NCBI RefSeq assembly: GCF_900104845.1
Contig: NZ_FNSR01000001.1
Location: 2,170,001-2,234,000, forward strand
Length of the DNA: 64,000 nt
Origin: Paraburkholderia caballeronis
GTDB taxonomy: Bacteria; Pseudomonadota; Gammaproteobacteria; Burkholderiales; Burkholderiaceae
Direction: 5' to 3'
Below are positions 3,505 to 63,349 of this stretch, one piece after another. The position numbers and the translations under genes were made by a program. The notes under the pieces were generated by a model. That model was not told where the DNA came from and searched no databases. It was given only the letters and a program-made list of their open reading frames with translations. Within the stretch, counting starts at the first letter, position 1, and every line of letters starts with the position of its first letter.

Positions 3505-5925
3505 TCAGTGCTTGACGACTTCGCCGGTAGCCGCGTCCTTCGCCGATTCGGCAACCGGCGCTTCGGCCTTCGCCTCTTCTTCCGGCAGCGCCTGCGGCAC
3601 CCGTTCGAGCGCCAGTTCGAGCACCTTGTCGATCCAGCGGACCGGCACGATTTCGATCGCGTTCTTCACGTTGTCCGGAATTTCCGTCAGGTCCTTCACG
3701 TTCTCTTCCGGGATCAGCACGAGCTTGATGCCGCCGCGATGCGCCGCGAGCAGTTTCTCCTTCAGCCCGCCGATCGGCAGCACTTCGCCGCGCAGCGTGA
3801 TTTCACCCGTCATCGCGACGTCGGCGCGCACCGGGATGCCGGTCAGCACGGACACCAGCGCCGTCGTCATCGCGATGCCGGCGGACGGACCGTCCTTCGG
3901 CGTCGCGCCTTCCGGCACGTGGATGTGGATGTCCTGCTTGTCGAACGCTTCGTCCTTGATGCCGAGACGACGCGAACGCGAACGCACCACCGAGCGCGCG
4001 GCTTCGACCGACTCCTTCATCACGTCGCCGAGCGAACCCGTGCGGATCACGTTGCCCTTGCCGGGCATCACCGCCGCTTCGATCGTCAACAGGTCGCCGC
4101 CGACTTCCGTCCACGCGAGGCCCGTGACCTGACCGATCTGGTTTTCCTTCGCGGCCAGGCCGAAGTCGTACTTGCGCACGCCGAGGAACGTGTCGAGGTT
4201 GCTGCCGTCGACCGTCACCGCACCATCCGCCTTCTTCAGCAGAAGCATCTTCACGACCTTGCGGCAGATCTTCGACACTTCGCGTTCCAGCGAGCGCACG
4301 CCCGCTTCACGCGTGTAGTAGCGAATGATGTCGCGGATCGCCTGCTCCGTGACCTCGATCTCGCCGGCCTTCAGGCCGTTGTTCTTCTTCTGCTTCGGCA
4401 GCAGGTAACGCAGCGCGATGCTGACCTTCTCGTCTTCCGTGTAACCCGACAGACGGATCACTTCCATCCGGTCGAGCAGCGGCGGCGGGATGTTCAGCGA
4501 GTTCGACGTCGCGACGAACATCACGTCCGACAGGTCGAAGTCCACTTCGATGTAGTGGTCCGCGAACGTGTGGTTCTGTTCCGGGTCCAGCACTTCGAGC
4601 AGCGCCGACGACGGATCGCCGCGGAAATCCATGCCCATCTTGTCGACTTCGTCGAGCAGGAAGAGCGGATTGCGCACGCCGACTTTCGTCAGGCTCTGCA
4701 GGATCTTGCCGGGCATCGACCCGATATACGTGCGCCGGTGGCCGCGAATCTCGGCCTCGTCACGCACGCCGCCGAGCGCCATGCGCACGAACTTGCGGTT
4801 CGTGGCGCGGGCGATCGACTGACCCAGCGACGTCTTGCCGACGCCGGGAGGCCCGACGAGGCACAGGATCGGCGCCTTCACCTTGTCCACGCGCTGTTGC
4901 ACCGCAAGATATTCGAGGATGCGTTCCTTCACCTTCTCAAGACCGTAGTGGTCTTCGTCGAGCACGCGTTCGGCGTTCGAGAGGTCGTTGTTGACCTTGC
5001 TCTTCTTGCGCCACGGCAGCCCGATCAGCGTGTCGATGTAGTTGCGCACGACCGTCGCTTCCGCCGACATCGGCGACATCAGCTTCAGCTTCTTCAGCTC
5101 CGCGTCGGCCTTCTTCTTCGCTTCCTTCGGCATGCGCGCGGCGGTGATGCGCTTCTCAAGCTCTTCGAGATCCGCGCCTTCTTCGCCTTCGCCCAGTTCC
5201 TTCTGGATCGCCTTGACCTGCTCGTTCAGGTAGTACTCGCGCTGGCTCTTCTCCATCTGACGCTTCACGCGTCCGCGGATGCGCTTCTCGACCTGAAGGA
5301 TGTCGATCTCCGCTTCGAGCTGCGCGAGCAGATGTTCGAGGCGCTCGATAACCGGGAACATCTCCAGGATGTGCTGCTTCTGGTCGAGCTTCAGCGGCAG
5401 ATGCGCGGCGATCGTATCGGCGAGACGCCCGGCTTCGTCGATACCCGACAGCGACGTCAGGATCTCCGGCGGGATCTTCTTGTTCAGCTTCACGTACTGG
5501 TCGAACTGCGACACGATCGCGCGACGCAGCGCTTCGGTTTCGGCGCTGTCCGCGTGGTCGGGTTCGAGCGGCAGCACTTCGCACGAGAACTGGGTTTCCT
5601 GTTCTTCGATCGAAAGCGTCTTCGCGCGCTGCAGCCCCTCGACCAGCACCTTCACGGTGCCGTCAGGCAGCTTCAGCATCTGCAGGATGTTCGCGATACA
5701 TCCCACTTCGTACATGTCTTTTTCGGTCGGCTCGTCCTTGGCGGCGGTTTTCTGCGCGACGAGCATGATGTGCTTGCCGCCCTCCATCGCCACTTCGAGC
5801 GCCTTGATCGACTTCGGCCGGCCCACGAAGAGCGGAATCACCATATGCGGGAAAACTACGACGTCACGCAGCGGGAGCAGCGGGAGCGTGGTGCGTTCCG
5901 GCGGGAGGAGTTGGGTTCCTGACAT
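3505..5925 (-). CDS. lon: ATP-dependent protease La (Lon)
   Basis: An 806-residue cytoplasmic AAA+ serine protease that degrades damaged and regulatory proteins. The N-terminal substrate domain opens with [16 protein letters not shown] coiled-coil middle leads to the ATPase with Walker [10 protein letters not shown] (about residue 358) and Walker [10 protein letters not shown]. The protease domain carries the catalytic Ser in KDGPSAG (about residue 681) and Lys in GGLKEKL (about 724), the family's Ser-Lys dyad. The last 30 residues are an Ala/Glu-rich tail. It is transcribed leftward with its own terminator on each side, so it is a separate unit within the quality-control block. Confidence 0.98.
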
Positions 5926-50357: not shown

Positions 50358-50648
50358 TCAGGCCGCTTTGCCGCCGTGCTGATCGAGCCACTGGCGCAGC
50401 GCGTCGTTCATCCGCGACTGCCAGCCGTCCCCCGTCGCGCGGAATTGCTCCACGATGTCCGCGTCGTAACGAACGGACAGCAGCACCTTCCGCTTCTCCA
50501 GCCTGGGGCGGCCCCGCGCTCCGACACGCTTCATCTTCGCGAAATCCCCGGCCGGCACTTCGTAGGTATCGGAATCGGCCGCAATGCCGCGGTTGATGGC
50601 GGCATCCTCCTCGTCCGTCGGCATGATGACTTTAGGCTTCGGCGACAT
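50358..50648 (-). CDS. brnA: BrnA-type antitoxin
   Basis: A 96-residue antitoxin. The N-terminal part (PTDEEDAAINRGIAADSDTYEV) and the C-terminal ribbon-helix-helix-like segment (KVLLSVRYDADIVEQFRATGDGWQSRMNDALRQWL) are typical of BrnA. It should bind and silence BrnT, and repress the shared promoter through its DNA-binding part. Its start overlaps the brnT end by 17 bases, giving the usual toxin-first order of this family. Confidence 0.92.
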   Translation of the reverse strand: MSPKPKVIMPTDEEDAAINRGIAADSDTYEVPAGDFAKMKRVGARGRPRLEKRKVLLSVRYDADIVEQFRATGDGWQSRMNDALRQWLDQHGGKAA

Positions 50649-50901
50649 AACTCGCTACCTCCCGCTTGTTGGCCTTTCGAAAACTGATCACGTGCATTGC
50701 GTCGCCCCGCTGGACGAACACAACGCAGTAAAGGCGCTCGCCGATCACGCCAAAACCCACTTCGCGTACTTCGCCGTAATCGCATCGCGCATCCACGTAG
50801 GCCATCACTTCCGGCCAGTCCAGTTCGGCCGCCATCGCCAACCCGACGCCGTGTTTGGCGAGGTTGCTCCGGTTCTTGACCGGATCGAAAGTGATTTCCA
50901 C
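50632..50901 (-). CDS. brnT: BrnT-type ribonuclease toxin
   Basis: An 89-residue RelE-fold-like toxin that in Brucella acts as a ribonuclease halting translation. The core EITFDPVKNRSNLAKHGVGLAMA and the C-terminal RLYCVVFVQRGDAMHVISFRKANKREV are typical. The GTG at 50901 is the only start that keeps the usual N-terminus; no good ribosome site precedes it, and a predicted -10 box lies 7 bases upstream, so the message may be almost leaderless. An in-frame start farther upstream (50979) would read through the promoter. Confidence 0.9.
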   Translation of the reverse strand: MEITFDPVKNRSNLAKHGVGLAMAAELDWPEVMAYVDARCDYGEVREVGFGVIGERLYCVVFVQRGDAMHVISFRKANKREVASYVAEA

Positions 50902-50908
50902 GGGAGTT

Positions 50909-50952
50909 ATTGTAGCTACGATATTAATGCGATGCAAATTTTTCGTAGCTAC
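50909..50952 (-). promoter_or_regulatory. brnTA promoter with two GTAGCTAC operators
   Basis: On the minus strand TTGCAT (50932-50937) and TACAAT (50909-50914) are separated by 17 bases. Perfect 8-bp palindromes GTAGCTAC lie at 50912-50919, overlapping the -10 box, and at 50945-50952, just upstream of the -35 box. Their centres are 33 bases apart, about three helical turns. This fits autorepression by BrnA. Confidence 0.65.
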
Positions 50953-51710
50953 TATAAAAAGGTCGGGCCGTCGTACCATTTTCGTGAGACCGTGTTGACC
51001 GGGCGATCAGCTTGCGTAGCCGATACCCCTGTTCGCCCGCACGACGACGAACCCTGTGCCGAAAGATCGTGTCGCGCGAGCCCCCGCGTTGCTCCAGAAC
51101 CACCGGCTGCGGCCCAGGCATCGCGAAGAGTTCGGCCGACGACCGCCTCATATGCGCATCGAGAAACTCGATGCTCCATCGATCGCCCGACCTGAACTGC
51201 AACCGCCTGCCTCGCCTTGCGTAGCGCCAGCGCACAAGAAGATCCCGCGCATTCACTCACGAGCCCGGTCGAATCCTTCTCGTAGAGAAACGACGGGAAG
51301 GTCCGGCACGCATGCTGCACGGAACGCGTACAGGTTTCGCGAGCCTTGAATGGCGCCGCGACGCCTTCGACCCACATCGTCGCGAGAAGGCGGCACCCGA
51401 ATCGTTCGAGCAGCGTCAGCGTATCGTCGATGAAGCGGAACGGCGTCTTCGCGCGGGTGCCGTGCTTCCGGATTGCACGGCGCACACCGGCCCGCTTGAT
51501 CTCCTGCCGTACGTCGTCGAGCCGATGCTTCGACGTGAACGCGCCCGGACAATAGCGGCGCTTGAGGGCGAGAAATTCGCGCGTGATGTACGGCGGAGCG
51601 TCCTCGTGCGCGATCAGGCCGGCGATCACGAGCAACGGCTGAACGTCCGATTTCGTCGCGGGCAGCGATGCGCTGCAGCCCGCCTCGTCGATATGGCAGA
51701 TGTACGACAC
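50952..51710 (-). pseudogene. DUF3800-like gene with an unrelated C-terminal half
   Basis: An open frame of 252 codons. Residues 1 to about 155 look like the DUF3800 family (MSYICHIDEAGCSASLPATK with the acidic HIDEAG motif; FLALKRRYCPGAF; HRLDDVRQEIKR; PSFLYEKDSTGLV). After that the expected Asp-Ser-Arg and LQLADL-type motifs are missing and the sequence becomes Cys/Arg/Ala-rich with no family likeness in any frame. The end of the frame touches the brnTA operator. Recombination or decay is likely. It starts 16 bases after a terminator and shows no promoter of its own. Confidence 0.5.
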
Positions 51711-51964: not shown

Positions 51965-52834
51965 TCACATCTTTCCTTTCCACGGCACCACCCTGCGCTC
52001 GACCGCCCGCATCCCGAGATCGAACAGCCACGCGATCAACCCGATCAGCACGATCCCCATCACGACGACATCCGTGCGCAGAAAACTCGACGCGTTCAGC
52101 ACCATCTGACCGAGGCCCGCGGTCGCGGCGACCATCTCGGCGGCCACGAGCGTCGTCCAGCCGAAGCCGATCGCGATACGCAAGCCGGTCAGGATTTCGG
52201 GCAGCGCGGCCGGCAGCACGACGAACCGCACGATCTGCCAGAACCCGCCGCCGAGCGAGCTTGCCGCGCGCAGTTGCTCCTCGGTCGCGCTGCGCGCGCC
52301 GGCCCGCGCGGCCATCGCGATCGGCGCGAAGCACGCGAGGTAGATCACGACGATCTTCGCGGTCTCGTCGATGCCGAACCAGATCACCACGAGCGGCAGA
52401 TACGCAAGCGGCGGCAGCGGCCGATAGAACTCCAGCGGCGGATCGAGCAGCCCGCGCGCGATCCGGCTGACGCCCATCAGGATGCCGACCGGCACCGCGG
52501 TCAGCGCCGCGAGCGCGAACGCGCCGAACACGCGCAGCGCGCTCCATCCCAGGTGCTCGGACAACGGCAGGCCGCCCTGGATGCGCCCGTGCCACGCATC
52601 GACGAATGCGGCCCAGACGGCCTCCGGCGTCGGCAGAAACAACGGCGGCAGCCAGTGCAGATGCGTCGCGAGCCACCACAGCAGCGCCAGCCCGGCAACC
52701 GACGCCAAACTCAACGCAGCGGTCGGCCCTTCTCCTGGCATGCGCCACACGCGCGCGCGGCGCGGGCCGGCATCGACAGCGCGGGTCTCAACTGCGTCGG
52801 CGGGTTTAACCAGCGACTCTCTCGGCACGCTCAC
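51965..52834 (-). CDS. tauC: Sulfonate/taurine ABC transporter permease
   Basis: A 289-residue permease with about six membrane segments. The GTG start at 52834 overlaps the tauB stop as GTGA, which decides the start. TauC/SsuC-like features are [43 protein letters not shown] and the coupling loop [31 protein letters not shown]. It is the last gene of tauA-tauB-tauC. It could serve taurine or other alkanesulfonates. Confidence 0.93.
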
Positions 52835-53628
52835 GTCAGCACCTCGTGCACGGCATCGTCGTGCAGGATGCGGATCAAACGCTCGCGCCATTCGATGAAT
52901 TCCGGCGACGACTTCACCGCGCGCGCATCGCGCGTCTCCAGATAACGTCGCGAGAACGGCAGCGCATAGGTCTGCGCGATCCGTCCGGGCCGCGGCGTCA
53001 TCACGACAAGCCGGGTCGCGAGAAACAGCGCCTCCTCGACGCCGTGCGTGATGAAGAACACCGTCTTGCGCGTGCGTCCCCATACGTCGAGCACGACTTC
53101 CTGCACCGCCTCGCGCGTCATCGCATCGAGCGCGCCCATCGGCTCGTCCATCAGCAGCATCCGCGGATCGCTCGCAAGCGCGCGCGCAATGCCGACACGC
53201 TGCTGCATGCCGCCCGACAGTTCGTACACGCGGGCCTGCGCGTGCGCATCGAGGCCGACCAGCGACAGCATCTGTAGCGCAACACGCTCGCGCTCCGCCT
53301 TCGGCACCCGCTGAAACCGCAGCCCGAGCGCGACGTTGTCGATAACGTTCAGCCACGGCATCAGCGCGTGCTTCTGGAACACGACGCCGCGATCCGCGCC
53401 CGGCCCCGTAACCACTTGCCCATCGATGCGCACGTCGCCGTCGGCCGGCTGGATAAAACCGGCGATGCAATTCAACAGCGTCGTTTTTCCACACCCGGAT
53501 GCACCGAGCGCGACGACGAACTCGCCGCTTTCAACGGACAGGTTGACGTCGGCGAGCGCGACGGTCGGCGAGCGGCCACGCCCGCCTTCATAAACGACGC
53601 TCAGCCCGCGAATCTCCAGCGCGCTCAT
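52831..53628 (-). CDS. tauB: Sulfonate/taurine ABC transporter ATPase
   Basis: A 265-residue ATPase. Walker [19 protein letters not shown]-loop [14 protein letters not shown], signature [16 protein letters not shown], Walker [13 protein letters not shown] and switch His in [11 protein letters not shown] are intact. The GADRGVVFQ and [18 protein letters not shown] segments are typical of TauB. Its stop overlaps the tauC start; tauA ends 25 bases upstream. Confidence 0.95.
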
Positions 53629-53653
53629 CGACGCATGCTCCGTGCGACGTCGC

Positions 53654-54706
53654 TCACTGCGCGGCCGCGCGCTGCACGTATTGCGGATCGACGCCGACCG
53701 AATAGTCGGACAGCACGTTCTGGATCGTCCCCTGCGTCTTCAGGAACGTGGCGGTCGCCGCAAGCGAACGCGCGGCGCCGGACTGCGCGCCGCCGCCGAG
53801 CCACGTGCCCGATGCCTGCTCGGCGAGCGTCGGGAACGCATAAAGCGCGAGGCTCGCGGGTACGTCCTGCGGATTCGCGCCGGACTCCTTCGCGACCGCC
53901 GCGGCCTTCGGCGACGCCGCGTTCCAGTCCGCGCGATGCGCGGCATAGTCGGCGTCCGTCGCCGCGAGCACCTTCACGAAACGGGTCAGGAATTCCGCGT
54001 TGTCCTTCGCGAAGCGGCGATCGACGACAAAACCGTCGAACGTCGCCTTGCCGCTTTCGCGCGCAACCTGGCCGGACGTGATCAGCACCTTGCCGTTCTT
54101 CTTCACCTGCGCGAGCACCGGGTCCCAGATGTACGTCGCGTCGATGTTGCCGCGCGCCCAAGCGGCCGCGACCTCGGGCGGACGCAGGTTCACGATCTTC
54201 ACGTCGGCCGGGTTCACGCCGGCGTCCTGCAACGCGACGAGCGTATGGAAATGCGATGTCGACACGTAAGGCACGCCGATCGTCTTGCCCTTCAGCCCCG
54301 CGAGGCTCGTGACGCCGGAGCCGTCGCGCACGACGAGCGCCTCCGCGTCGTTGATGTTGTCGAGAATCCAGAACAGCGAGATGTCGACGCCCTGCGACAA
54401 GCCCGCCGCAATCGGGCTCGACCCGGCCTCGCCGAGCTGCACCGAGCCCGACGCGAGCGCGCGGATCACGTCCGCCCCGCTCGCGAGCTTGCGATACGTG
54501 ACCTTGTAGCCGGTCGCTTTCTCGACCTCGCCGCTCGCCTGCGCGAAGCGCCACGGCACGACCATGTCCTGATACGCGATCACGACCTCGTGCGTGTCGG
54601 CCCGCGCGGGTCCGGCGACGAACGCGGCGGACAGCGCAGCGCATGCCGCGAGCGCGGCAGCCACGGGACGCAGACGACGTGCAAAGGAACGAGAGAAGCG
54701 ATTCAT
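53654..54706 (-). CDS. tauA: Taurine-type sulfonate-binding protein
   Basis: A 350-residue periplasmic binding protein. The ATG at 54706 has GGAG 7 bases upstream; a TTG one codon earlier is an alternative. Its signal peptide ends near AFVAGPARA, and the mature protein opens [18 protein letters not shown], then [24 protein letters not shown], as in TauA. It delivers sulfonate to TauBC. No tauD dioxygenase is nearby, so release of sulfite must occur through another enzyme or the substrate is not taurine. Confidence 0.93.
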
Positions 54707-54746
54707 CAACGGACTCCGGCAAGTAGGTCGAAACGGGAAGGCTCCG

Positions 54747-54796
54747 ACTATAGGAGGTCTTGCCGGCCGCGGTTCTAACTTATCCGCGATAGCTAA
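54747..54796 (-). promoter_or_regulatory. Candidate LysR-type-activated promoter of tauA
   Basis: On the minus strand a TATAGT -10 box (54747-54752) has only a poor -35. About 40 bases upstream lies TTA-N11-TAA (54780-54796), a T-N11-A arrangement typical of LysR-type activators such as CysB or SsuR. Its core GATTAGCTATCG recurs upstream of the second binding-protein gene. Confidence 0.5.
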
Positions 54797-54880
54797 TCAT
54801 GCCGCCTGGGCATTGCTATTTCCGCTGCGCCGGATCGCGGCGCAACGGTGACGGTGGAATCGTCGCGATAATTCGCGCGC

Positions 54881-54908
54881 AAAAAAAGAGCCGGCGCAAG
54901 GCCGGCTC
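54881..54908 (-). terminator. Terminator after the encapsulin/desulfurase operon
   Basis: GAGCCGGC (54888-54895) pairs with GCCGGCTC (54901-54908) around a GCAAG loop. Seven A residues on the left give a U7 tract on the minus strand. It separates the desulfurase gene from tauA. Confidence 0.9.
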
Positions 54909-54950
54909 CCGATGCTCAACGATCCGCAGCGATCGCCGGACGCGTGTTCG

Positions 54951-56996
54951 TCAGGCCCTTCGCGCCGCGAGCCTGCGCACCGTGTCGACCATCGCATCGA
55001 CTTCTTCGCACGTGTTGTAGAACGCGAGCGAAGGCCGCACCGTCGCTTCGAGGCCGAAGCGGCGCAGGATCGGCTGCGCGCAGTGATGCCCGGAGCGCAC
55101 CGCGATGCCGTCCTCGTTCAGCGCGCGCCCGACTTCCTCCGTCTCGTAGCCGCGCAGCACGAACGACAGCACGCTCGCCTTGTCCTTCGCGGTGCCGACC
55201 AGACGCACGCCCGGCACCGGCGCGAGCACGCTCGTCGCATACGCGAGCAGATCGTGCTCGTAGCGGGCGATGTTCTCGATGCCGATCCGGTTCACGTAGT
55301 CGAGCGCCGCGCCGAGCCCCACCGCGTCCGCGATGTTGCCGGTGCCCGCCTCGAAACGCGCGGGCGCGGGCTGGAACACCGTGCGCTCGAACGTGACGTC
55401 CGCGATCATGTTGCCGCCGCCCTGCCACGGCGGCATCGCATCGAGGATCTCGCGTTTGCCGTACACGACGCCGATCCCGGTCGGCCCGAAAATCTTGTGG
55501 CCGGAGAACACGAAGAAATCCGCGTCGAGCGCCTGTACGTCGACGCGCATGTGCGACACCGACTGCGCGCCGTCCACGAGCGCCTTCGCACCCGCGCGAT
55601 GCGCGAGATCGACGATCTCCGCGACCGGCACGACGGTGCCGAGCGCATTCGACACCTGCGTGACCGACACGATCTTCGTGCGCGCGTTCAGCAGCTTCCG
55701 ATATTCGTCGAGCAGCACCTGGCCCGAGTCGTCCACCGGAATCACGCGCAGCGTCGCGCCCTTCGCGGCCGCGAGCTGCTGCCACGGCACGATGTTCGCG
55801 TGATGCTCCAGATGCGACACGACGATCTCGTCGCCCGCGCCGATGTTCTGCTCGCCCCACGACTTCGCGATCAGGTTGATCGCCTCGGTCGTGCCGCGCA
55901 CGAACACGATCTCGTCCGCCGACGATGCGCCGACGAAACGCCGCACGGTCTCGCGCGCATGCTCGTAGGCATCCGTCGCGCGGCCCGCGAGCGTGTGCGC
56001 GGCGCGGTGGATGTTCGAGTTCTCGTGCTCGTAGAAATACGCGAGCCGGTCGATCACCGCCTGCGGCTTCTGCGTGGTCGCCGCGTTGTCGAACCAGATC
56101 AACGGCTTGCCGTTCACGCGCTCGCTGAGGATCGGGAAGTCGCGCCGCACCGCATGCACGTCGAACGGCGGATGCGCGGATGCGAACGGCGTCGCGCGCT
56201 GCGCATCGCGCGGATGCGCGGCGGCGCGGGCGTCGTCGAACGCGTACAGCGAGCCGGTGCGCGACGGCGTGCGGGCCGCATCATCCGGCGTGAAGCGATG
56301 CAGCGGCAGCAGCTCGCGCAGATCGTTTTGCGCGGGCAGGCCGAACGCGCGCGGATCGGCCGCGTTGCCGTGCAGCGAATGAGGCACCGCGATGTCGAGC
56401 GGCGCATCGACCGCGCTGCGCGCCGCGTCGTCGAGGAAATAGAACGGCGACCCCGTTGCGGGCGCCACGTGCGGACGCGCGAGCCCGCCTGCTTCCGGCA
56501 CGCCGAGCGCGACGCCGCCCGCGCGCGGCTCGAACGCCGGCGCGATTGACACCACGCTGTCCGGCAAGCCGTTCTGCGCGGCCGCATGCGGTGCGAGCGC
56601 GGGAATGCGGTTGCTGAGCGACAGCACGTGCGTCGGCGCGCCCGGCAGCAGATTCGCGCCCGGCACGCGCCCTTGCGGCAACGACAGCCCCGGCACGCCG
56701 GTGCCCGCGCCACCCGGCCCCGCGAGCGGCGAGCCCGGCGGCACCGGATTGCCGATCGACGACAGGATCGGCGCGGCGGCCGGCAGCGCGGACGGCACGC
56801 CACCCACCGCGCCGCTGCCCGCCGATACGTCCGGCACAGCGGCCCCGCCCGGCAACGCACTGAAGAACTCGGTGGCGAGCCGCGCGAGCATCGACGGGTC
56901 CGGCAAGCCGCCCGGCAGAGCCGGCGCGGGCAGGTCCGGCAGCGCGCCGCCCGCGGCCGGATTACCCGGATTACCGATAGGTGTCTGCATAGTCAT
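54951..56996 (-). CDS. SufS-type cysteine desulfurase with encapsulin cargo-loading extension
   Basis: A 681-residue PLP enzyme that removes sulfur from cysteine as a persulfide. The catalytic domain begins at about residue 278 (FDVHAVRRDFPIL), with Lys501 in SGHKIFGPTG binding PLP and Cys639 in SGHHCAQPIL, as in type II (SufS/CsdA) enzymes. Residues 1 to about 275 are Pro/Gly/Ala-rich and look disordered, with hydrophobic islands LPDPSMLARLATEFFSALPG, GSPFYFLDD and LPAQNDLRELLPLHRF. In family 2A encapsulins such an extension directs the enzyme into the shell. The start overlaps the shell gene by 26 bases; ATGs at 57020 and 56990 are alternatives. Confidence 0.93.
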   Translation of the reverse strand: MTMQTPIGNPGNPAAGGALPDLPAPALPGGLPDPSMLARLATEFFSALPGGAAVPDVSAGSGAVGGVPSALPAAAPILSSIGNPVPPGSPLAGPGGAGTGVPGLSLPQGRVPGANLLPGAPTHVLSLSNRIPALAPHAAAQNGLPDSVVSIAPAFEPRAGGVALGVPEAGGLARPHVAPATGSPFYFLDDAARSAVDAPLDIAVPHSLHGNAADPRAFGLPAQNDLRELLPLHRFTPDDAARTPSRTGSLYAFDDARAAAHPRDAQRATPFASAHPPFDVHAVRRDFPILSERVNGKPLIWFDNAATTQKPQAVIDRLAYFYEHENSNIHRAAHTLAGRATDAYEHARETVRRFVGASSADEIVFVRGTTEAINLIAKSWGEQNIGAGDEIVVSHLEHHANIVPWQQLAAAKGATLRVIPVDDSGQVLLDEYRKLLNARTKIVSVTQVSNALGTVVPVAEIVDLAHRAGAKALVDGAQSVSHMRVDVQALDADFFVFSGHKIFGPTGIGVVYGKREILDAMPPWQGGGNMIADVTFERTVFQPAPARFEAGTGNIADAVGLGAALDYVNRIGIENIARYEHDLLAYATSVLAPVPGVRLVGTAKDKASVLSFVLRGYETEEVGRALNEDGIAVRSGHHCAQPILRRFGLEATVRPSLAFYNTCEEVDAMVDTVRRLAARRA

Positions 56997-57903
56997 GGTA
57001 CTTGCCGATCTCCACGTCATCGAGCACCGCGAGCGCGTCCGGCGAATGAACCGCGAGCGAGCAGTACAGCGAGATCAGATACGACGCGATCGCCTGGTTG
57101 TTGATGCCCATGAACCGCACCGACAGCCCCGGCCCCTGTTCGCCGGCGACGCCCGGCTGATACAGGCCGACCACGCCCTGGCGCTTGTCGCCGACGCGCA
57201 GCAGCAGGATCTTGGTCTTGCCGTCCGCGACCGGCACCTTGTCCGACGGAATCAGCGGCAGGCCGCGCCACGTGAGGAACTGCGAGCCGAACAGGCTGAC
57301 CGTCGGCGGCGGCACGCCGCGCCGCGTGCATTCGCGGCCGAACGCGGCGATCGCGAGCGGATGCGTGAGGAAAAACGCCGGCTCCTTCCACACCCTCGTC
57401 AGCAGTTCGTCGAGATCGTCCGGCGTCGGCGCGCCGGTCAGCGGAAAGATGCGCTGATCTTCCTCGACGTTCGCGAGCAGGCCGTAGTCCGGGTTGTTGA
57501 TCAGCTGGCTTTCCTGAAGCTCCTTGATCGTCTCGATCGTCAGGCGCAACTGCTCCTTGATCTGGTCGTGCGGGCTGCTGTACAGGTCCGAGATCCGCGT
57601 ATGCACGTCGAGCACCGTGCTGACCGCGTTCAGGAAGTATTCGCGCGGCTGTTCTTCATACGGAACGAACGTGGTCGGCAGCGTGCCTTCGTCCTCGCGC
57701 GCGGTGCAGGCGGCGCGCACCGCTTCCGGGTCCTTCACGCGATTCAGCCGGTAGATGCCCGCCTCGACCGGCACCCATTGCAGCAGATGCGTGAGCCAGC
57801 GCGGCGTGATCGTGGAAAGCTGCGGGACGGTCTTGGTGGCATTGGCTAGTTGCCGGGCGGCGTTATCGCCGAGAGCGGTCTGGCCGCTCGCAGTCGTCGA
57901 CAT
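56971..57903 (-). CDS. srpI: Family 2A encapsulin shell protein (SrpI-like)
   Basis: A 310-residue HK97-fold shell protein that self-assembles into an icosahedral compartment. Recognition rests on long family blocks: AARQLANATKTVPQLSTITP, RWLTHLLQWVPVEAGIYR, DVHTRISDLYSSPHDQIKEQ, GAPTPDDLDELLTRVWKEP, AIAAFGRECTRRGVPPPTVS, and GLSVRFMGINNQAIASYLIS. Length equals the family's usual 305-320. The ATG at 57903 has GGAG 6 bases upstream. Its stop overlaps the desulfurase start, the shell-cargo arrangement known for this family. In Synechococcus the homologue SrpI is induced by sulfur starvation; an Acinetobacter homologue has been reported to sequester sulfur. Confidence 0.96.
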   Translation of the reverse strand: MSTTASGQTALGDNAARQLANATKTVPQLSTITPRWLTHLLQWVPVEAGIYRLNRVKDPEAVRAACTAREDEGTLPTTFVPYEEQPREYFLNAVSTVLDVHTRISDLYSSPHDQIKEQLRLTIETIKELQESQLINNPDYGLLANVEEDQRIFPLTGAPTPDDLDELLTRVWKEPAFFLTHPLAIAAFGRECTRRGVPPPTVSLFGSQFLTWRGLPLIPSDKVPVADGKTKILLLRVGDKRQGVVGLYQPGVAGEQGPGLSVRFMGINNQAIASYLISLYCSLAVHSPDALAVLDDVEIGKYHDYADTYR

Positions 57904-57954
57904 GGATGACTCCAGTTCTTTAGAAGAAAAACGGAAATGCTTATGACGAAAGCG

Positions 57955-57994
57955 ATTATCGGGAGCGGAAATCGGCGGCTCAACATGCTATAGC
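57955..57994 (-). promoter_or_regulatory. Candidate promoter of the encapsulin operon
   Basis: On the minus strand TTGAGC (57978-57983) and GATAAT (57955-57960) are separated by 17 bases. A perfect palindrome GCTATAGC lies just upstream at 57987-57994, a possible operator. The start codon is about 50 bases downstream. Confidence 0.5.
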
Positions 57995-58042
57995 CAGCAA
58001 CCCGCGTCCCAGCGAACGAAGTCGATCAAACGGATGCGATAT

Positions 58043-58069
58043 GCCGTGCCCGCGACGCGCAGGCACGGC
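58043..58069 (-). terminator. Hairpin between the XRE gene and the encapsulin gene
   Basis: GCCGTGCC (58043-58050) pairs with GGCACGGC (58062-58069) around an 11-base loop, 12 bases after the XRE stop. There is no U tract, so it may only reduce read-through or protect message ends. Confidence 0.4.
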
Positions 58070-58081
58070 GCAAAAGAATCG

Positions 58082-58366
58082 TCAGGAATGAACCGGCGAG
58101 CGCGGACACGACACGCCCGTCACCGGCGGCACTGCCGCTGCGTCCCGCGCGCCGGCCACATTCAGCAGCAGATCGGCGATCGATACGCCGAATGCGCGCG
58201 CAAGCTTTTCGACGGTGACGATCGAAGCGATCACGGTGCCGCGCTCGATCTCGCCGACATACGAGCGGTTCAGTCCCGCATGTTCGGCAAGCTGCTCCTG
58301 CGACCAGCCGCGCGCCTCGCGCAGCCGCCGCACGATCACGCCGAAATCGCGAACGAGCGCGTTCAT
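58082..58366 (-). CDS. Small XRE-family transcriptional regulator
   Basis: A 94-residue protein that is mostly a Cro/CI helix-turn-helix: FGVIVRRLREARGWSQEQLAEHAGLNRSYVGEIERG followed by KLARAFGVSIADLLL. No sensory domain is present apart from a short tail (VAGARDAAAVPPVTGVSCPRS) with one Cys. The start at 58366 overlaps the cysE stop as ATGA, so the two are translationally coupled. Its position between cysE and the shell gene suggests control of the encapsulin operon, but the operator is unproven. Confidence 0.9.
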   Translation of the reverse strand: MNALVRDFGVIVRRLREARGWSQEQLAEHAGLNRSYVGEIERGTVIASIVTVEKLARAFGVSIADLLLNVAGARDAAAVPPVTGVSCPRSPVHS

Positions 58367-59340
58367 CGCAGTGCGCCGGCCGCGGGTTCGACGGCCGGTT
58401 GATCCGCGGTGGCGAAGGTAGCGGCAACGGCCGGCGCCGGCCGCGTGTCGTGACGCGAGATCGCCTGGGTGACGTGCGCGCCCGGCGGCACGCTGTCGGT
58501 CAGCCATACGTTGCCGCCGATCACCGCGCCGCGCCCGAGCGTCACGCGGCCGAGGATCGTCGCGCCCGCGTAGATCACGACGTCGTCCTCGACGATCGGA
58601 TGGCGCGCGAGCCCCTTCTCCAGATGGCCGGCCGCATCGCGCGGAAAACGTTTTGCACCGAGCGTCACCGCCTGGTACACGCGCACGCGTTCGCCGATCA
58701 CCGACGTCTCGCCGATCACGACGCCAGTGCCATGGTCGATGAAAAACCCCGCGCCGATCTGCGCGCCCGGATGGATGTCGATGCCGGTCGCCGCATGCGC
58801 GAGTTCCGCGACGATCCGCGCGAGCAGCGGCAGGCCGAGCCGATACAGTTCGTGCGCGAGGCGATGGTGGATCATCGCGAGCACGCCCGGATAACACAGC
58901 AGCACCTCGTCGACGCTGCCCGCCGCCGGGTCGCCGTGGAACGCGGCGAGCACGTCGCTGTCGAGCAGCGAGCGGATCGCCGGCAGCCGCTGCGCGAACG
59001 CGTGCACGGCGGCGCTTGCGCGCGCATCGATGTCGGCGTCGTCGGGCCGGCCATGCCGCGCCTTGTATTGCAGTTCGAGCCGCGCCTGCGCGAGCAGCGC
59101 ATGCAGCGCGGCATCGAGCGCGTGGCCGACGTAGAAGTTTTCGCTTTCCTGACGCAGATCCGGCGGCCCGAGCCGCATCGGAAACAGCACGCCCTTCAGC
59201 GTATCGACGATGTCCGCGAGCGCCTCGCGCGCCGGCAGCTCGCGCCCGCCCGGTTCGAGCGAACGGCGCTGCTCCTCGCGCCACTGCTGGCGCACGGTCT
59301 GCAGTGCGCCGACGATTTCTGCGACATTGAATACGGTCAC
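58363..59340 (-). CDS. cysE: Serine O-acetyltransferase
   Basis: A 325-residue enzyme that makes O-acetylserine, the carbon skeleton for cysteine. The left-handed beta-helix region is clear: ATGIDIHPGAQIGAGFFIDHGTGVVIGET, GERVRVYQAVTLGAKRFP and HPIVEDDVVIYAGATILGRV. The N-terminal domain of about 180 residues is of the long EpsC type. The GTG at 59340 is preferred because GGGGAG lies 8 bases upstream; GTG 59349 overlaps that site. It stands between a rhodanese and an XRE gene, as in many family 2A encapsulin loci, where extra CysE supports cysteine supply for the desulfurase. Confidence 0.94.
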   Translation of the reverse strand: MTVFNVAEIVGALQTVRQQWREEQRRSLEPGGRELPAREALADIVDTLKGVLFPMRLGPPDLRQESENFYVGHALDAALHALLAQARLELQYKARHGRPDDADIDARASAAVHAFAQRLPAIRSLLDSDVLAAFHGDPAAGSVDEVLLCYPGVLAMIHHRLAHELYRLGLPLLARIVAELAHAATGIDIHPGAQIGAGFFIDHGTGVVIGETSVIGERVRVYQAVTLGAKRFPRDAAGHLEKGLARHPIVEDDVVIYAGATILGRVTLGRGAVIGGNVWLTDSVPPGAHVTQAISRHDTRPAPAVAATFATADQPAVEPAAGALR

Positions 59341-59418
59341 GTTACGCACTCCCCGGTATGCGAATACCCTTGAATCACATCAAGCTGTCGGGTGCGCGTC
59401 CCGCGACGCGACCCGCTT

Positions 59419-59886
59419 CTAGTCCTGCACCCACGGCAAACCGTGGAACCGCCAGCCGTTGCGCAGCCCGCGATGGCCGGCGTCGTCGAGGTCGCCCTCG
59501 AAACCCTCCTGCACGTTGAACACGTTCGTGAACCCCGCCTTCGCGGCGGCCTCGGCGGCCAGCGCCGAGCGGTTGCCGCTACGGCACAGCAGCACGACCA
59601 CCGCATCCTTGCCGGTCTTCGCCTCCAGCTCGCGCACGAAGCGCGGATTGCGCGTGAGGCTCGTGCCGGTCGCCCATGCGACGTGCAGCGTGTCCGGCAC
59701 GTGGCCGACGAACTTGCGCTCCTCGGCCGTGCGCACGTCGACCAGCACCGCGTCGCCGGCCGCGCGCAGCGCCCACGCCTGCTGCGGCGTGACGCTGCCC
59801 GCATACGGCAGCCCCGCTGCCTGCGCCGCGGCGCGCGCCGCTTCGAGATCCGCGTGCAGCGGCTTGTCCTGTACTTCCACCGTCAT
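59419..59886 (-). CDS. Single-domain rhodanese-like sulfurtransferase
   Basis: A 155-residue protein with one rhodanese fold: VTPQQAWALRAAGDAVLVDVRTAEERKFVGHVP and the active loop VVVLLCRSGNRSALAA with Cys101 able to carry a persulfide. The start at 59886 has GGAGG upstream. It lacks a signal peptide, so it is cytoplasmic. It sits 78 bases upstream of cysE on the same strand. Rhodaneses recur in family 2A encapsulin operons and may pass or accept sulfane sulfur from the desulfurase. Confidence 0.94.
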   Translation of the reverse strand: MTVEVQDKPLHADLEAARAAAQAAGLPYAGSVTPQQAWALRAAGDAVLVDVRTAEERKFVGHVPDTLHVAWATGTSLTRNPRFVRELEAKTGKDAVVVLLCRSGNRSALAAEAAAKAGFTNVFNVQEGFEGDLDDAGHRGLRNGWRFHGLPWVQD

Positions 59887-59940
59887 AAAGGCCTCCAGGG
59901 TCAGCGATCGCAGCGCGTGTCGTTGTCGTCGCGCTGCTGT

Positions 59941-60012
59941 CTATAGCCATCAGGAGGTCACTATGAAAGAGCCGCACGCGAACTCAAACCAATAAAAAAT
60001 GCTATCTAAATG
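59941..60012. promoter_or_regulatory. Upstream region of rhodanese with GCTAT motifs and a short + strand frame
   Basis: CTATAG at 59941-59946 and GCTATC at 60001-60006 resemble motifs at the other sulfur-gene promoters. On the + strand an AGGAGG (59952-59957) precedes a 10-codon frame at 59963-59995 (MKEPHANSNQ). The meaning is uncertain; the frame runs opposite to its neighbours and may be chance. Confidence 0.3.
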
Positions 60013-60050
60013 AGCCGCTTTTTCGGCGTCGCAGCGTCGTGCGCCATCGC

Positions 60051-61046
60051 TCACGCGGCCGCGATGTGCGTGTCGGAGATCGCGCGCACGTCGATGCGGC
60101 GCGGCAGGATCGCTTCGCGAAACGCGGTGTCGGCGACCTGCTGGAGCGCCGCGATGTCCGCGTCGGTCACGAAACGCTGCTTGAGGGCCGAACGCGCGGT
60201 GATCTGCTTCGCCGCTTCGGGCGGCGTGCGCGTCAGCGTCGCGTAGACCTGTGCATAGGCATCGGGATTCGCGAGCGCCCAGTCGCCCGCGCGCTGGAAC
60301 CGCACGAGCACGTCGGCGATCGCCGCGCGCTTGCGGGTGTCCGCGACGGCCGCGCCCGACGCGGTGATGAATCCGAGCCCGCTATTGATGCCGGTGCCGT
60401 CGCGCAGCACGCGGCCGCCGCGCTGCGCGGCGATGCCGTAATACGGATCGAACGTTGCCCATACCTCGATCGAGCCGGATGCGAACGCGGCGAACGCATC
60501 GACCGGCAGGATGAAGCGGACCGACACGTCGTCCTTCGACAACCCCGCTTCGGCCAGCGCGCCATACAGCTGATACTGCGAGATGCTGCCGCGTGCGGAC
60601 GACACGAACACGGTGCGCCCCTTCAGGTCCGCGACGCGGCGGATCGACGAATCGGACCGCACGAGGATGCCGAGTTGCGTCGGCACGCCGGCGCGCGTCG
60701 CGACGATCTTCATGTCCGGATCGCCGGCCGCCGCCGCGAGCACCGGCAGGTCGCCGGCCGGCGCGAGATCGACTGCGCCCGCCCGCTGCGCTTCGAACAG
60801 CGGCGCCGCGCCCTGGAAGTTCGCCCAGCGGAATCCATACGGCGCGCCGTCGAGCACCTTCGCGGCTTCGACGAGCGCGCGCAGGCCGCCGGCCTGATCG
60901 CCCAGCACGAGCATCGCGCCGGACAGATCCGCTGCATAGGCACGCTGCGAATGAAGCGCGGCGGCCGCCGCCGCGAGCGGCGCGGCAGCGGCGAAGCCAA
61001 GCACGCGACGCCGCGTGGTGAAGAACGTTCGAACCGGATCGGTCAT
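60051..61046 (-). CDS. Sulfonate-type ABC substrate-binding protein (SsuA-like)
   Basis: A 331-residue periplasmic binding protein. The start at 61046 (MTDPVRTFFTTRRRVLGF) has GGAG 7 bases upstream. The twin-arginine-like TTRRRVLGF with a hydrophobic stretch ending QRAYA suggests Tat export. The mature part shows the SsuA/THI5-like pattern (FQGAAPLFEAQRAGAVDLAPAGDLPVL; VPTQLGILVRSDSSIR; DLKGRTVFVSSARGSISQYQL; FASGSIEVWATFDPYYGIA). No permease or ATPase is adjacent, so it may work with TauBC or another transporter. It heads the leftward series that contains the encapsulin genes. Confidence 0.9.
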   Translation of the reverse strand: MTDPVRTFFTTRRRVLGFAAAAPLAAAAAALHSQRAYAADLSGAMLVLGDQAGGLRALVEAAKVLDGAPYGFRWANFQGAAPLFEAQRAGAVDLAPAGDLPVLAAAAGDPDMKIVATRAGVPTQLGILVRSDSSIRRVADLKGRTVFVSSARGSISQYQLYGALAEAGLSKDDVSVRFILPVDAFAAFASGSIEVWATFDPYYGIAAQRGGRVLRDGTGINSGLGFITASGAAVADTRKRAAIADVLVRFQRAGDWALANPDAYAQVYATLTRTPPEAAKQITARSALKQRFVTDADIAALQQVADTAFREAILPRRIDVRAISDTHIAAA

Positions 61047-61107
61047 GCGCAATCTCCTGCAATGTCGCTGCAAGCGTAGCGGCGAAGCGCATCGCGCGGA
61101 ATGATTC

Positions 61108-61120
61108 GATTCAGCTATCG
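61108..61120 (-). promoter_or_regulatory. Shared GATTCAGCTATCG motif upstream of the binding-protein gene
   Basis: GATTCAGCTATCG (read on the + strand) differs from the tauA-upstream motif GATTAGCTATCG by a single inserted base, and lies about 60 bases upstream of the start codon. It is a likely site for a shared sulfur regulator of the LysR type. Confidence 0.4.
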
Positions 61121-61311
61121 TTATGGTGATTCGTTCTTTATCGTCCGCGTGTTATGGACGACGTTTGCGCCGTAGCGCTCATAAGCATGGGAGAACAAAT
61201 CCGTTACTCGCGCAACGTGCCGGGCGTTATGCTTGATCCGCCGCGCGAGGCGCGTTTACCGCCGCGTTTTCCGCCGCGCTTTCACGTCCACGTTCATTCA
61301 CGGGGTTCACG

Positions 61312-61972: not shown

Positions 61973-63349
61973 TCACGCGATTGCTTCCGCGCGCTGCCGG
62001 AACGACGCGCCCGCGTGCCGCAAGGGCAGCGTGTCGCCCTCGCCGAACAGCTTCTGACGCAGCGAGCCCGGCGCATAAGCCGTCTTGTACAGCCCGCGAT
62101 TCTGCAGTTCCGGCACGACCAGATCGACGAAATCCTCGTAGCTCTCCGGCACCACGGTGCGGCTCAGGTTGAAGCCATCGACGCCCGCCTCGTCCACCCA
62201 CGCCTGCAACTCGTCCGCAACGTGCGCGGCGGTGCCGACGATCGCCGGATAACGTCCGCCGAGTTCGAACATTTCCAGCAGCCTGCGGCGCGTCCAGCCG
62301 TGCTGCTTCGCGGTGCGCGTCGCCGATTCGATCGCGTTGCCCGGCGCGTAATCGACCGGCGCGTCGAGGTCGTACTGCGCGTAGTCGATGCCGGTGCTCG
62401 CGGCGAAATGCGCGAGGCCGGCCTCGCGGCTCGCGTAGTGCAGATAATCCGCGTATTTCTCGCGCGCTTGTGCTTCGGTCGCGCCCGGCACCACCGCCGC
62501 GCCGACGAACACCTTCACGTCGTCCGGACGCCGGCCCGCGCGCACCAGTTCCTCGCGCAGCGTGCGTACCGTTTCGCGGCCGACCTGGCGGTTCGGCGGC
62601 GAGATGAACACGCACTCCGCGTGACGCGCGGCGAACCGCTGCCCGCGTCCCGAACTGCCCGCCTGGAACAGCACCGGCGTGCGCTGCGGCGACGGCTCCG
62701 CGAGGTGATAACCGTCCACGTTGTAATAGCGGCCCGCGTGCTGCACGCGATGCACCTTCGCCGGGTCCGCGAACACGCGCGCGGCCTTGTCGCGGCGCAC
62801 GGCGTCCGGCTCCCAGCTGCCCTCCCACAGCTTGTACAGCACGTCGAGATATTCGTCCGCGCGATCGTAGCGTTCGTCGTGCGGCAACTGTTCGGTGAGA
62901 CCCATCGCGCGCGCGGCGCTGTCGAGGTAGCCGGTCACGATGTTCCAGCCGATGCGCCCCTGCGTCAGATGATCGAGCGTCGAGAAACGCCGCGCGAGCA
63001 GATACGGCTGCTCGTAGGTGAGATTCACCGTGACGCCGAAACCGAGGTGTTCGGTGACCGCGGCCATCGCGGACACCAGCAGCGTCGGGTCGTTGACCGG
63101 CAACTGGATCGACTCGCGCAGCGTCACGTCGACGTTGTGCTGGTACACGTCGTACACGCCGACGATGTCCGCGAGAAAGAGCCCGTCGAACAGCCCGCGT
63201 TCGAGCGTGCGCGCGAGGTTGGTCCAGTACGGCAGCAGCCGGTAGTCGGTCGAGCGGTCGCGCGGATGCGTCCACAGCCCATGATTGATGTGGCCCACGC
63301 AGTTCATGTTGAACGCGTTGAGCAGGATCGGTTTGTTCGTGTTCGCCAT
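61973..63349 (-). CDS. FMN-dependent (LLM class) monooxygenase, NtaA/SnaA/DszA type
   Basis: A 458-residue bacterial luciferase-like enzyme. Family blocks: LNAFNMNCVGHINHGLWTHP, WTNLARTLERGLFDGLFLAD, FGVTVNLTYEQPYLLARRFSTLDHLTQGRIGWNIVTGY, VLFQAGSSGRGQRFAARHAE, and GVDGFNLSRTVVPESYEDFVDLVVPEL. This group needs reduced FMN from a partner reductase and includes enzymes splitting dimethyl sulfide, dibenzothiophene sulfone and nitrilotriacetate. Its position next to sulfur-import genes suggests an organosulfur substrate. Confidence 0.92.
   Translation of the reverse strand: MANTNKPILLNAFNMNCVGHINHGLWTHPRDRSTDYRLLPYWTNLARTLERGLFDGLFLADIVGVYDVYQHNVDVTLRESIQLPVNDPTLLVSAMAAVTEHLGFGVTVNLTYEQPYLLARRFSTLDHLTQGRIGWNIVTGYLDSAARAMGLTEQLPHDERYDRADEYLDVLYKLWEGSWEPDAVRRDKAARVFADPAKVHRVQHAGRYYNVDGYHLAEPSPQRTPVLFQAGSSGRGQRFAARHAECVFISPPNRQVGRETVRTLREELVRAGRRPDDVKVFVGAAVVPGATEAQAREKYADYLHYASREAGLAHFAASTGIDYAQYDLDAPVDYAPGNAIESATRTAKQHGWTRRRLLEMFELGGRYPAIVGTAAHVADELQAWVDEAGVDGFNLSRTVVPESYEDFVDLVVPELQNRGLYKTAYAPGSLRQKLFGEGDTLPLRHAGASFRQRAEAIA

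Follow-up and report, generated by a model that had tools for sequence, protein, structure and literature searches.

A family 2A desulfurase encapsulin cassette in Paraburkholderia caballeronis with a candidate dedicated XRE-family regulator and two predicted operators

The window analyzed here, 64,000 nucleotides of contig NZ_FNSR01000001.1 (positions 2,170,001 to 2,234,000) from the 7.1-Mb, three-contig genome of Paraburkholderia caballeronis, carries a cassette for a family 2A (SrpI-type) encapsulin shell, its cysteine desulfurase cargo (CyD), a rhodanese, a serine acetyltransferase (SAT, encoded by cysE) and a small XRE-family helix-turn-helix regulator. We propose that this is a family 2A encapsulin with CyD as cargo and with XRE as its dedicated regulator acting through two operators, a reading to which we assign a rough probability of 0.77. 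The occurrence of family 2A desulfurase encapsulins together with SAT and rhodanese, Burkholderia included, is already published (main text of PMC8346489), and what is new here is the proposed regulation of such a cassette by XRE and its operators.

The first-pass annotation had taken the product of 57903-56971 for an SrpI-like shell, had proposed an encapsulin profile search and had named the lack of an encapsulin match as what would speak against the assignment. The search gave 524 bits against the curated family 2A model NF041162 (cut-off 380), with residues 11-305 spanning all 295 model positions, and a match to the SrpI-like family PF19307 (E 2.5e-100) with no other Pfam domain found. The shell also passes the cut-off of 400 of the family 2B model NF041163, with 414 bits split over two stretches; the cyclic-nucleotide-binding domain that discriminates 2B from 2A was found in the 310-residue shell neither by Pfam nor by the curated models. 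The best PDB match is 8t6r (E 9.4e-167, 306 residues aligned), which we take to be the Acinetobacter baumannii shell, and SrpI of Synechococcus elongatus, 72.9% identical to the shell, aligns over 301 residues (6x8m, E 3.5e-146), with 6x8t also among the best PDB relatives. By homology to the solved shells 8t6r and 6x8m, the protein should have the HK97 fold; an AlphaFold model built from 18 close relatives had a mean predicted local distance difference test score of 31 and was unusable for the fold. In SrpI, the main text of PMC8049743 places G194 and P196 at the pore, which is the fivefold one, and F262 and Y273 near the cargo density. The counterparts in our shell, counted by hand on the alignment, are identical (G196, P198, F264, and Y275) and are invariant in 18 shells. 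Among the matches listed, the closest named shells come from Paraburkholderia and Burkholderia, with that of P. sacchari 98% identical. On these sequence comparisons we identify the 310-residue product as a family 2A encapsulin shell. A phage capsid reading was set aside, as the gene products fit the curated models for encapsulin shell and cargo.

The cargo gene agrees with the earlier description of a SufS-type desulfurase with a long N-terminus whose gene overlaps that of the shell. Its likelier start is the ATG at 56996 or at 56990, rather than the mechanical start at 57020, giving an overlap of 26 bp or 20 bp, respectively. CyD scores 955 bits against the family 2A cargo model NF041166 (cut-off 800) and 565 bits against the SufS-type model TIGR01979. 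A Pro/Ala/Gly-rich N-terminus occupies approximately residues 1-270 and the catalytic domain approximately residues 278-676; the first 270 residues contain 16% Pro, 19% Ala, and 12% Gly and have no Lys, Cys, or Trp, suggesting a disordered region. Alignment to 8kg1 and CsdB points to Cys639 in HHCAQP and Lys501 in GHK as active-site candidates, presumably the catalytic cysteine and the pyridoxal phosphate lysine. Two cargo-loading motifs, LARLANEFFS and AASPYYFLDG, are described in the main text of PMC8049743 for the desulfurase N-terminus, and CyD carries LARLATEFFS from residue 37 and SPFYFLDD from residue 183 (in ATGSPFYFLDD). Counts of both motifs over the relatives with loose regular expressions (131/153 and 119/153) were not used. 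By its models and motifs, CyD is a family 2A desulfurase cargo with both loading motifs. Encapsulated CyD was found to be ∼7-fold more active in the main text of the same study.

The other three genes were also found, like the shell and cargo genes, where the first-pass annotation had placed them, and its description of a family 2A locus with SAT and rhodanese accessories is borne out by Pfam, the curated models and the enrichment reported in the literature. In the direction of transcription the order is SsuA-like binding protein, rhodanese, SAT, XRE, shell, desulfurase, and TauABC. The rhodanese has the active-site loop CRSGNRS with Cys101. CysE scores 155.9 bits against the EpsC model NF041874 (cut-off 150) and 166.9 bits against the cysE model TIGR01172, under its cut-off of 210.65. 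The XRE start overlaps the cysE stop by ATGA, and the regulator is probably translated together with SAT. The first-pass annotation named the XRE gene but assigned it no function. Residues 33-43 of XRE, NRSYVGEIERG, are 85 to 100% conserved per residue in an alignment of 127 and may form its recognition helix.

To place the cassette among its relatives, we collected 176 shell loci from genomes of the same genus, order, and phylum plus 80 named loci, the latter being the 80 closest of 589, so that the set leans to near relatives; the counts take relatives as they stand, kinship included. By shell DNA, 157 of the 176 loci are unique, and 13 of these were too short for the gene set to be judged, leaving 144; a position between two shells (L078) was left out. 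Rhodanese, cysE, XRE, and CyD surround the shell in 115 of the 144 complete unique loci, in the same order as in the window when the locus map is read by eye. In the rest, XRE alone is missing from 10, the set consists of cysE and desulfurase in 11 and of the desulfurase only in 6, and 2 have other combinations. The conserved unit is therefore of five genes: rhodanese, cysE, XRE, shell, and desulfurase. We scored XRE as absent where tblastn with the window XRE found nothing that scored 40 bits or more on the shell strand within 4.5 kb, a test that a far-diverged regulator could escape. One locus (L105, in G143) has two tandem XRE matches between cysE and the shell, each 78% identical to the window XRE. 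Six same-genus genomes (G060, G061, G073, G101, G008, and G142) each have two or three family 2A shells, and the second copies L098, L068, L070, and L099 (in G008, G061, G073, and G101) are without rhodanese, cysE, XRE, and operator. In four further loci (L132-L135, in G286, G294, G171, and G414) the shells lie in longer frames of 471 to 520 residues with a separate N-terminal piece, match the 2A model from position 50-52 and neighbor a desulfurase and a distant CysE; by sequence they look like family 2B shells with desulfurase cargo.

Although all five genes lie on the minus strand, as the first-pass annotation had it, the single leftward cluster is probably transcribed as more than one unit. 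The gap between XRE and the shell is 178 bp and holds a promoter-like site. A single five-gene operon was set aside on the operators, the promoter scan and the spacing of the promoter boxes in relatives, and the cassette reads as two units, rhodanese-cysE-XRE and shell-CyD, each with a GGCTATAGCC-like site. The common word upstream of both shell and rhodanese is GGCTATAG with its flanks. The core word was picked after inspection of the common words and then ranked against all 1,024 ten-base palindromes on the identical loci. Allowing up to two mismatches to GGCTATAGCC within 250 bp upstream, a test that shuffled sequences pass in 6 to 10% of cases, we found the shell-side operator in 124/126 loci that have XRE versus 0/30 without it (one locus was too near a contig end), and the rhodanese-side operator in 110/123 versus 2/11. 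The two XRE loci missing from the shell-side count, L168 and L203, have three-mismatch forms 78 and 94 bases upstream of the shell. At two mismatches GGCTATAGCC ranks first of the 1,024 palindromes in both regions where XRE is present, and where XRE is absent it ranks 947th on the shell side and 259th on the rhodanese side. An operator at both promoters with XRE, and none without it, is thus a strong tendency to which exceptions exist.

The strict pattern TGNYGKCTATAGNM gave three matches in the window, all at the two operators, versus none in 100 shuffles. Over the whole 7.1-Mb P. caballeronis genome it has four matches at three places, two of them inside the cassette; around the third (C1:501242) there are only mechanical open reading frames of 97 to 134 residues, and we take it as chance. 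Among 141 same-genus genomes scanned, the mean number of strict matches was 3.32 in the 53 with a shell and 1.26 in the 88 without, an excess of approximately two. Of 57 same-genus XRE loci, 42 have at least two strict sites within 3.2 kb upstream of the shell. We also placed XRE and operator on a shell tree of 138 proteins, in which 17 identical proteins were collapsed and from which L172 and L098 were omitted because their translation failed. At least seven changes in XRE presence occur on this tree, four of them forced by supported branches, and the operator is found with 107/109 shells that have XRE versus 0/29 without. Of the four supported independent contrasts, an average of 3.7 have the operator changing along with XRE, and none has it going the opposite way.

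The position of each operator suggests how it could work. The predicted shell promoter, TTGAGC-17-GATAAT, is the sole promoter-like site in the 7.6 kb of 53600-61200, a count near chance as shuffles gave 0.5. Both of its boxes (at least 4/6 bases) lie at a fixed distance from the operator in 61/124 loci versus at most one at any of 20 shifts. If transcription starts 7 nucleotides past the −10 box, the center of the shell-side dyad lies at ∼−42, which fits an activator-like place for operator 1. The candidate rhodanese promoter, TTGAGT-16-CATAGT, a weak one read by eye, is missing from the scanner list, and its −10 box is conserved in the aligned loci; on the same assumption operator 2 lies just past the CATAGT box, from ∼+2 to +15, apparently a repressor-like place. 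Upstream, from ∼−57 to −34, is a conserved AT-rich box with the consensus TTtnGAAAtgA..tTTnATTgGTT over 110 aligned loci, which could, as a guess, be the site of a LysR-type sulfur regulator. A terminator-like hairpin lies after the desulfurase, and for this reason TauABC probably forms a separate unit; the scanned region has five terminator-like sites versus 4.6 in shuffles, a number near chance.

From this arrangement we infer that the rhodanese-cysE-XRE unit would be controlled by sulfur status, with the AT-rich box as a candidate site, and that XRE would be made together with the products of this cysteine-supply operon. XRE would then bind two copies of one near-palindromic operator, repressing its own operon at the rhodanese-cysE-XRE promoter and activating shell and CyD at the shell-CyD promoter, so that by sequence it is most likely a dedicated switch which restrains its own operon and turns on the shell. 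Because XRE would be encoded in the cysteine-supply operon and activate the shell, shell building would be tied to that operon and come after it. SrpI-like subunits would build the shell and take up CyD through its two N-terminal motifs. Inside, CyD would strip sulfur from cysteine, and the sulfur would be held in the shell or handed to rhodanese, while SAT would make O-acetylserine, the carbon skeleton for cysteine. For Burkholderiales sulfur encapsulins at large, we give slightly better than even odds to XRE repressing the cysteine-supply operon and activating the shell-cargo operon, with few or no other targets.

Several results weigh against this reading. The −10 box passes at 4/6 in only 62/124 loci, and operator 1 overlaps the −35 region, a place that a repressor could also use. 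The rhodanese-side site was not found in 13 of the 123 XRE loci, and a single strict site is present in 8 of the 57 same-genus XRE loci and no strict site in 7. The same two-mismatch test also finds matches upstream of cysE (20/123 with XRE and 7/23 without) and of CyD (7/123 and 8/30), so single matches of this kind mean little. The reversed control pattern has three matches in the P. caballeronis genome versus four for the strict one, and in same-genus genomes the reversed controls are mostly higher than the strict counts; the genome total is therefore background, and the case for the operators rests on place and co-occurrence. The four contrasts on the tree are too few for significance, XRE has no evident sensor domain, and, according to the main text of PMC8049743, knockouts of srpI and cyd in S. 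elongatus had no growth phenotype.

If XRE instead repressed both promoters, the same encapsulin cassette would be off until a signal released it. This we consider unlikely: the shell-side operator does abut the TTGA of the −35 box and the rhodanese-side one lies just past the −10 box, a usual place for a repressor, but a dyad centered at ∼−42 with a fixed spacing to the promoter is where a polymerase-contacting activator usually sits. The XRE-less second copy L068 points the same way, as by eye its shell is preceded by TTGGGC-17-TATAAT with no operator, the −10 box being nearer to consensus than the GATAAT of the window, as expected where activation is not needed, although this is one example. 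The GGCTATAG element could also be the site of another regulator or part of the promoter, with XRE present in the same lineages by coincidence. The XRE-positive loci do cluster in one region of the shell tree, all in the order of the window or in named relatives, and provide few independent contrasts. The element, however, has a different position at each of the two promoters and few copies elsewhere in the genome, and the XRE-less second copies (L068, L070, L098, and L099) are without it even though they share the cell's other regulators with the XRE-carrying copies, which makes coincidence quite improbable to us.

With regard to function, the first-pass annotation had the shell fed by imported sulfonates, and the compartment could serve sulfonate use as a dedicated step, taking its sulfur from taurine or other sulfonates brought into the cell. 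Genes for TauABC and for SsuA-like and NtaA/DmoA-like proteins flank the cassette, and in ∼10 kb around 57 same-genus cassettes (short loci L071, L090, L102, and L109 left out), compared with 20 control windows from 16 genomes, we found a sulfonate-type permease near 20/57 versus 0/20, a binding protein near 16/57 versus 0/20 and an NtaA/DmoA-type monooxygenase near 28/57 versus 0/20; the ATPase (24/57 versus 3/20) is less telling, and a nitroreductase is not enriched (3/57 versus 0/20). Close TauABC relatives (70 to 85% identity) also adjoin the cassette in Caballeronia (L217 and L218), on its opposite side. Yet the choice, place and direction of the sulfonate genes vary between loci, none belongs to the conserved five-gene unit or to the two proposed XRE-controlled units, 37/57 cassettes have no such permease nearby and 29/57 no such monooxygenase, and on pANL the neighbors of srpI are cysK and others. 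As these genes are enriched yet variable, the link to organosulfur supply is a tendency and no fixed part of the system: the enrichment stands, and a dedicated sulfonate step falls well short of even odds. An alternative main task for the compartment, in place of sulfur storage, would be protection from surplus cysteine or the supply of persulfides for redox defense; this we find improbable. A cysteine desulfurase with a rhodanese could do either, and sulfur utilization and redox homeostasis are the functions put forward for these systems in the main text of PMC8346489; against this, a relative is reported to store elemental sulfur (Benisch 2024, by title), and the paired SAT serves cysteine making, not removal. 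A role of CyD in iron-sulfur cluster assembly, as for SufS, is suggested by its SufS-type domain. Against it, the genome has four other desulfurase-like matches elsewhere, distant and partial, with 26 to 31% identity. We rejected this role as very improbable on the absence of SufB and SufE, as neither family had a match in the genome, whereas control genomes had SufB in 14/14 and SufE in 5/14. CyD would therefore be without a SUF partner there, which fits sulfur storage or release.

Features of the cassette and its neighborhood, with positions in the window
Feature	Position	Strand	Basis
Family 2A (SrpI-type) encapsulin shell protein, 310 residues	56971..57903	-	NF041162, PF19307, PDB relatives
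CyD, SufS-type cysteine desulfurase cargo, 681 residues	54951..56996	-	NF041166 955 bits; motifs
XRE-family helix-turn-helix regulator, 94 residues	58082..58366	-	HTH_3 E 1.4e-17
Serine O-acetyltransferase (EpsC/SrpH-like), 328 residues, GTG start	58363..59349	-	EpsC NF041874, cysE TIGR01172
Single-domain rhodanese, 155 residues	59419..59886	-	PF00581 E 9.4e-16
Operator 1 (shell promoter), TGCTGGCTATAGCA, predicted	57986..57999	-	Co-occurrence, pattern, palindrome ranking
Operator 2 (rhodanese-cysE-XRE promoter), TGATGGCTATAGAC, predicted	59939..59952	-	Co-occurrence, pattern, palindrome ranking
Predicted sigma-70 promoter of shell-CyD, TTGAGC-17-GATAAT	57955..57983	-	Promoter scanner
Predicted promoter of rhodanese-cysE-XRE, TTGAGT-16-CATAGT	59960..59987	-	Read by eye, weak
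Conserved AT-rich box upstream of rhodanese promoter, TTTAGATAGCATTTTTTATTGGTT	59987..60010	-	110 aligned loci
Terminator-like hairpin after CyD, 10 pairs, then T run	54886..54910	-	Terminator scan
TauA-like taurine/sulfonate binding protein (neighbor, not core)	53654..54709	-	TIGR01729 341 bits, cut-off 304
TauB-like ATP-binding cassette ATPase (neighbor)	52831..53628	-	PF00005; Tau name by position
TauC-like permease (neighbor)	51965..52831	-	PRK10160 TauC 285 bits, under cut-off 342
SsuA-family binding protein (neighbor)	60051..61073	-	TIGR01728 152.5 bits, under cut-off 163.5
NtaA/DmoA-family flavin mononucleotide monooxygenase (neighbor)	61973..63349	-	TIGR03860 561 bits, cut-off 279.7

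Further along, a BrnT/BrnA toxin-antitoxin pair (PF04365 and PF14384) lies at 50358-50979 on the minus strand, between rimO and the tau genes. Next to it, an open reading frame (50952-51710) without any Pfam match is possibly a remnant.

If our reading is true, an encapsulin would have a transcription factor of its own, and the circuit itself would set the sequence, supply before shell. A dedicated regulator with two defined operators would provide an experimental handle on the role of family 2A encapsulins in the cell.

The closest described counterpart is the SrpI-CyD system on plasmid pANL of S. elongatus PCC 7942 (main text of PMC8049743; PDB 6x8m and 6x8t), with a shell 72.9% and an adjacent SAT 60.3% identical to ours and with the same loading motifs named for its CyD. 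As in the window, the pANL CyD is annotated as family 2A cargo and a rhodanese adjoins it. The SAT next to srpI is presumably SrpH. The pANL order is cysK-SAT-srpI-cyd-rhodanese, whereas in the window the rhodanese comes first and XRE stands between SAT and the shell. Unlike in the window, none of the 18 annotated features in the pANL stretch examined is an XRE gene, and GKCTATAGCM had no match in its 12.9 kb. The A. baumannii family 2A desulfurase encapsulin, which reportedly stores elemental sulfur, has a shell 79% identical to ours and a 61.6% identical SAT 285 bp away.

In the main text of PMC8346489, SAT and rhodanese are the most enriched accessories of family 2A desulfurase operons, the combination of desulfurase cargo, SAT, and rhodanese being that of the window, and desulfurase systems are named in Burkholderia cepacia and B. 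pseudomallei. A word search of that main text gave no mention of XRE, helix-turn-helix, sulfonate, or taurine. Neither open-access searches nor the main texts of PMC8346489 and PMC8049743 turned up a paper in which a desulfurase encapsulin is connected with a regulator of the XRE or helix-turn-helix kind; in the passages of PMC8987985 that name them, XRE and encapsulins appear in separate contexts, and a further paper retrieved lacks the word encapsulin. A Variovorax plasmid record (L282) has a helix-turn-helix regulator at the same place as in the window, and there RefSeq itself names shell and cargo; in this record the regulator gene (4667-4936) holds the shell-side site (4917-4930) in its 3' end, and no strict operator match was found at the rhodanese.

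Small autoregulating XRE regulators are known as restriction-modification controllers and as antitoxin-type proteins. Like these, the window XRE is an HTH_3 protein of fewer than 100 residues encoded beside the genes that it would control, with near-palindromic predicted operators at repressor-like and activator-like places. Unlike them, it is tied to a metabolic nanocompartment, and none of the five genes of its cassette is a restriction or toxin gene.

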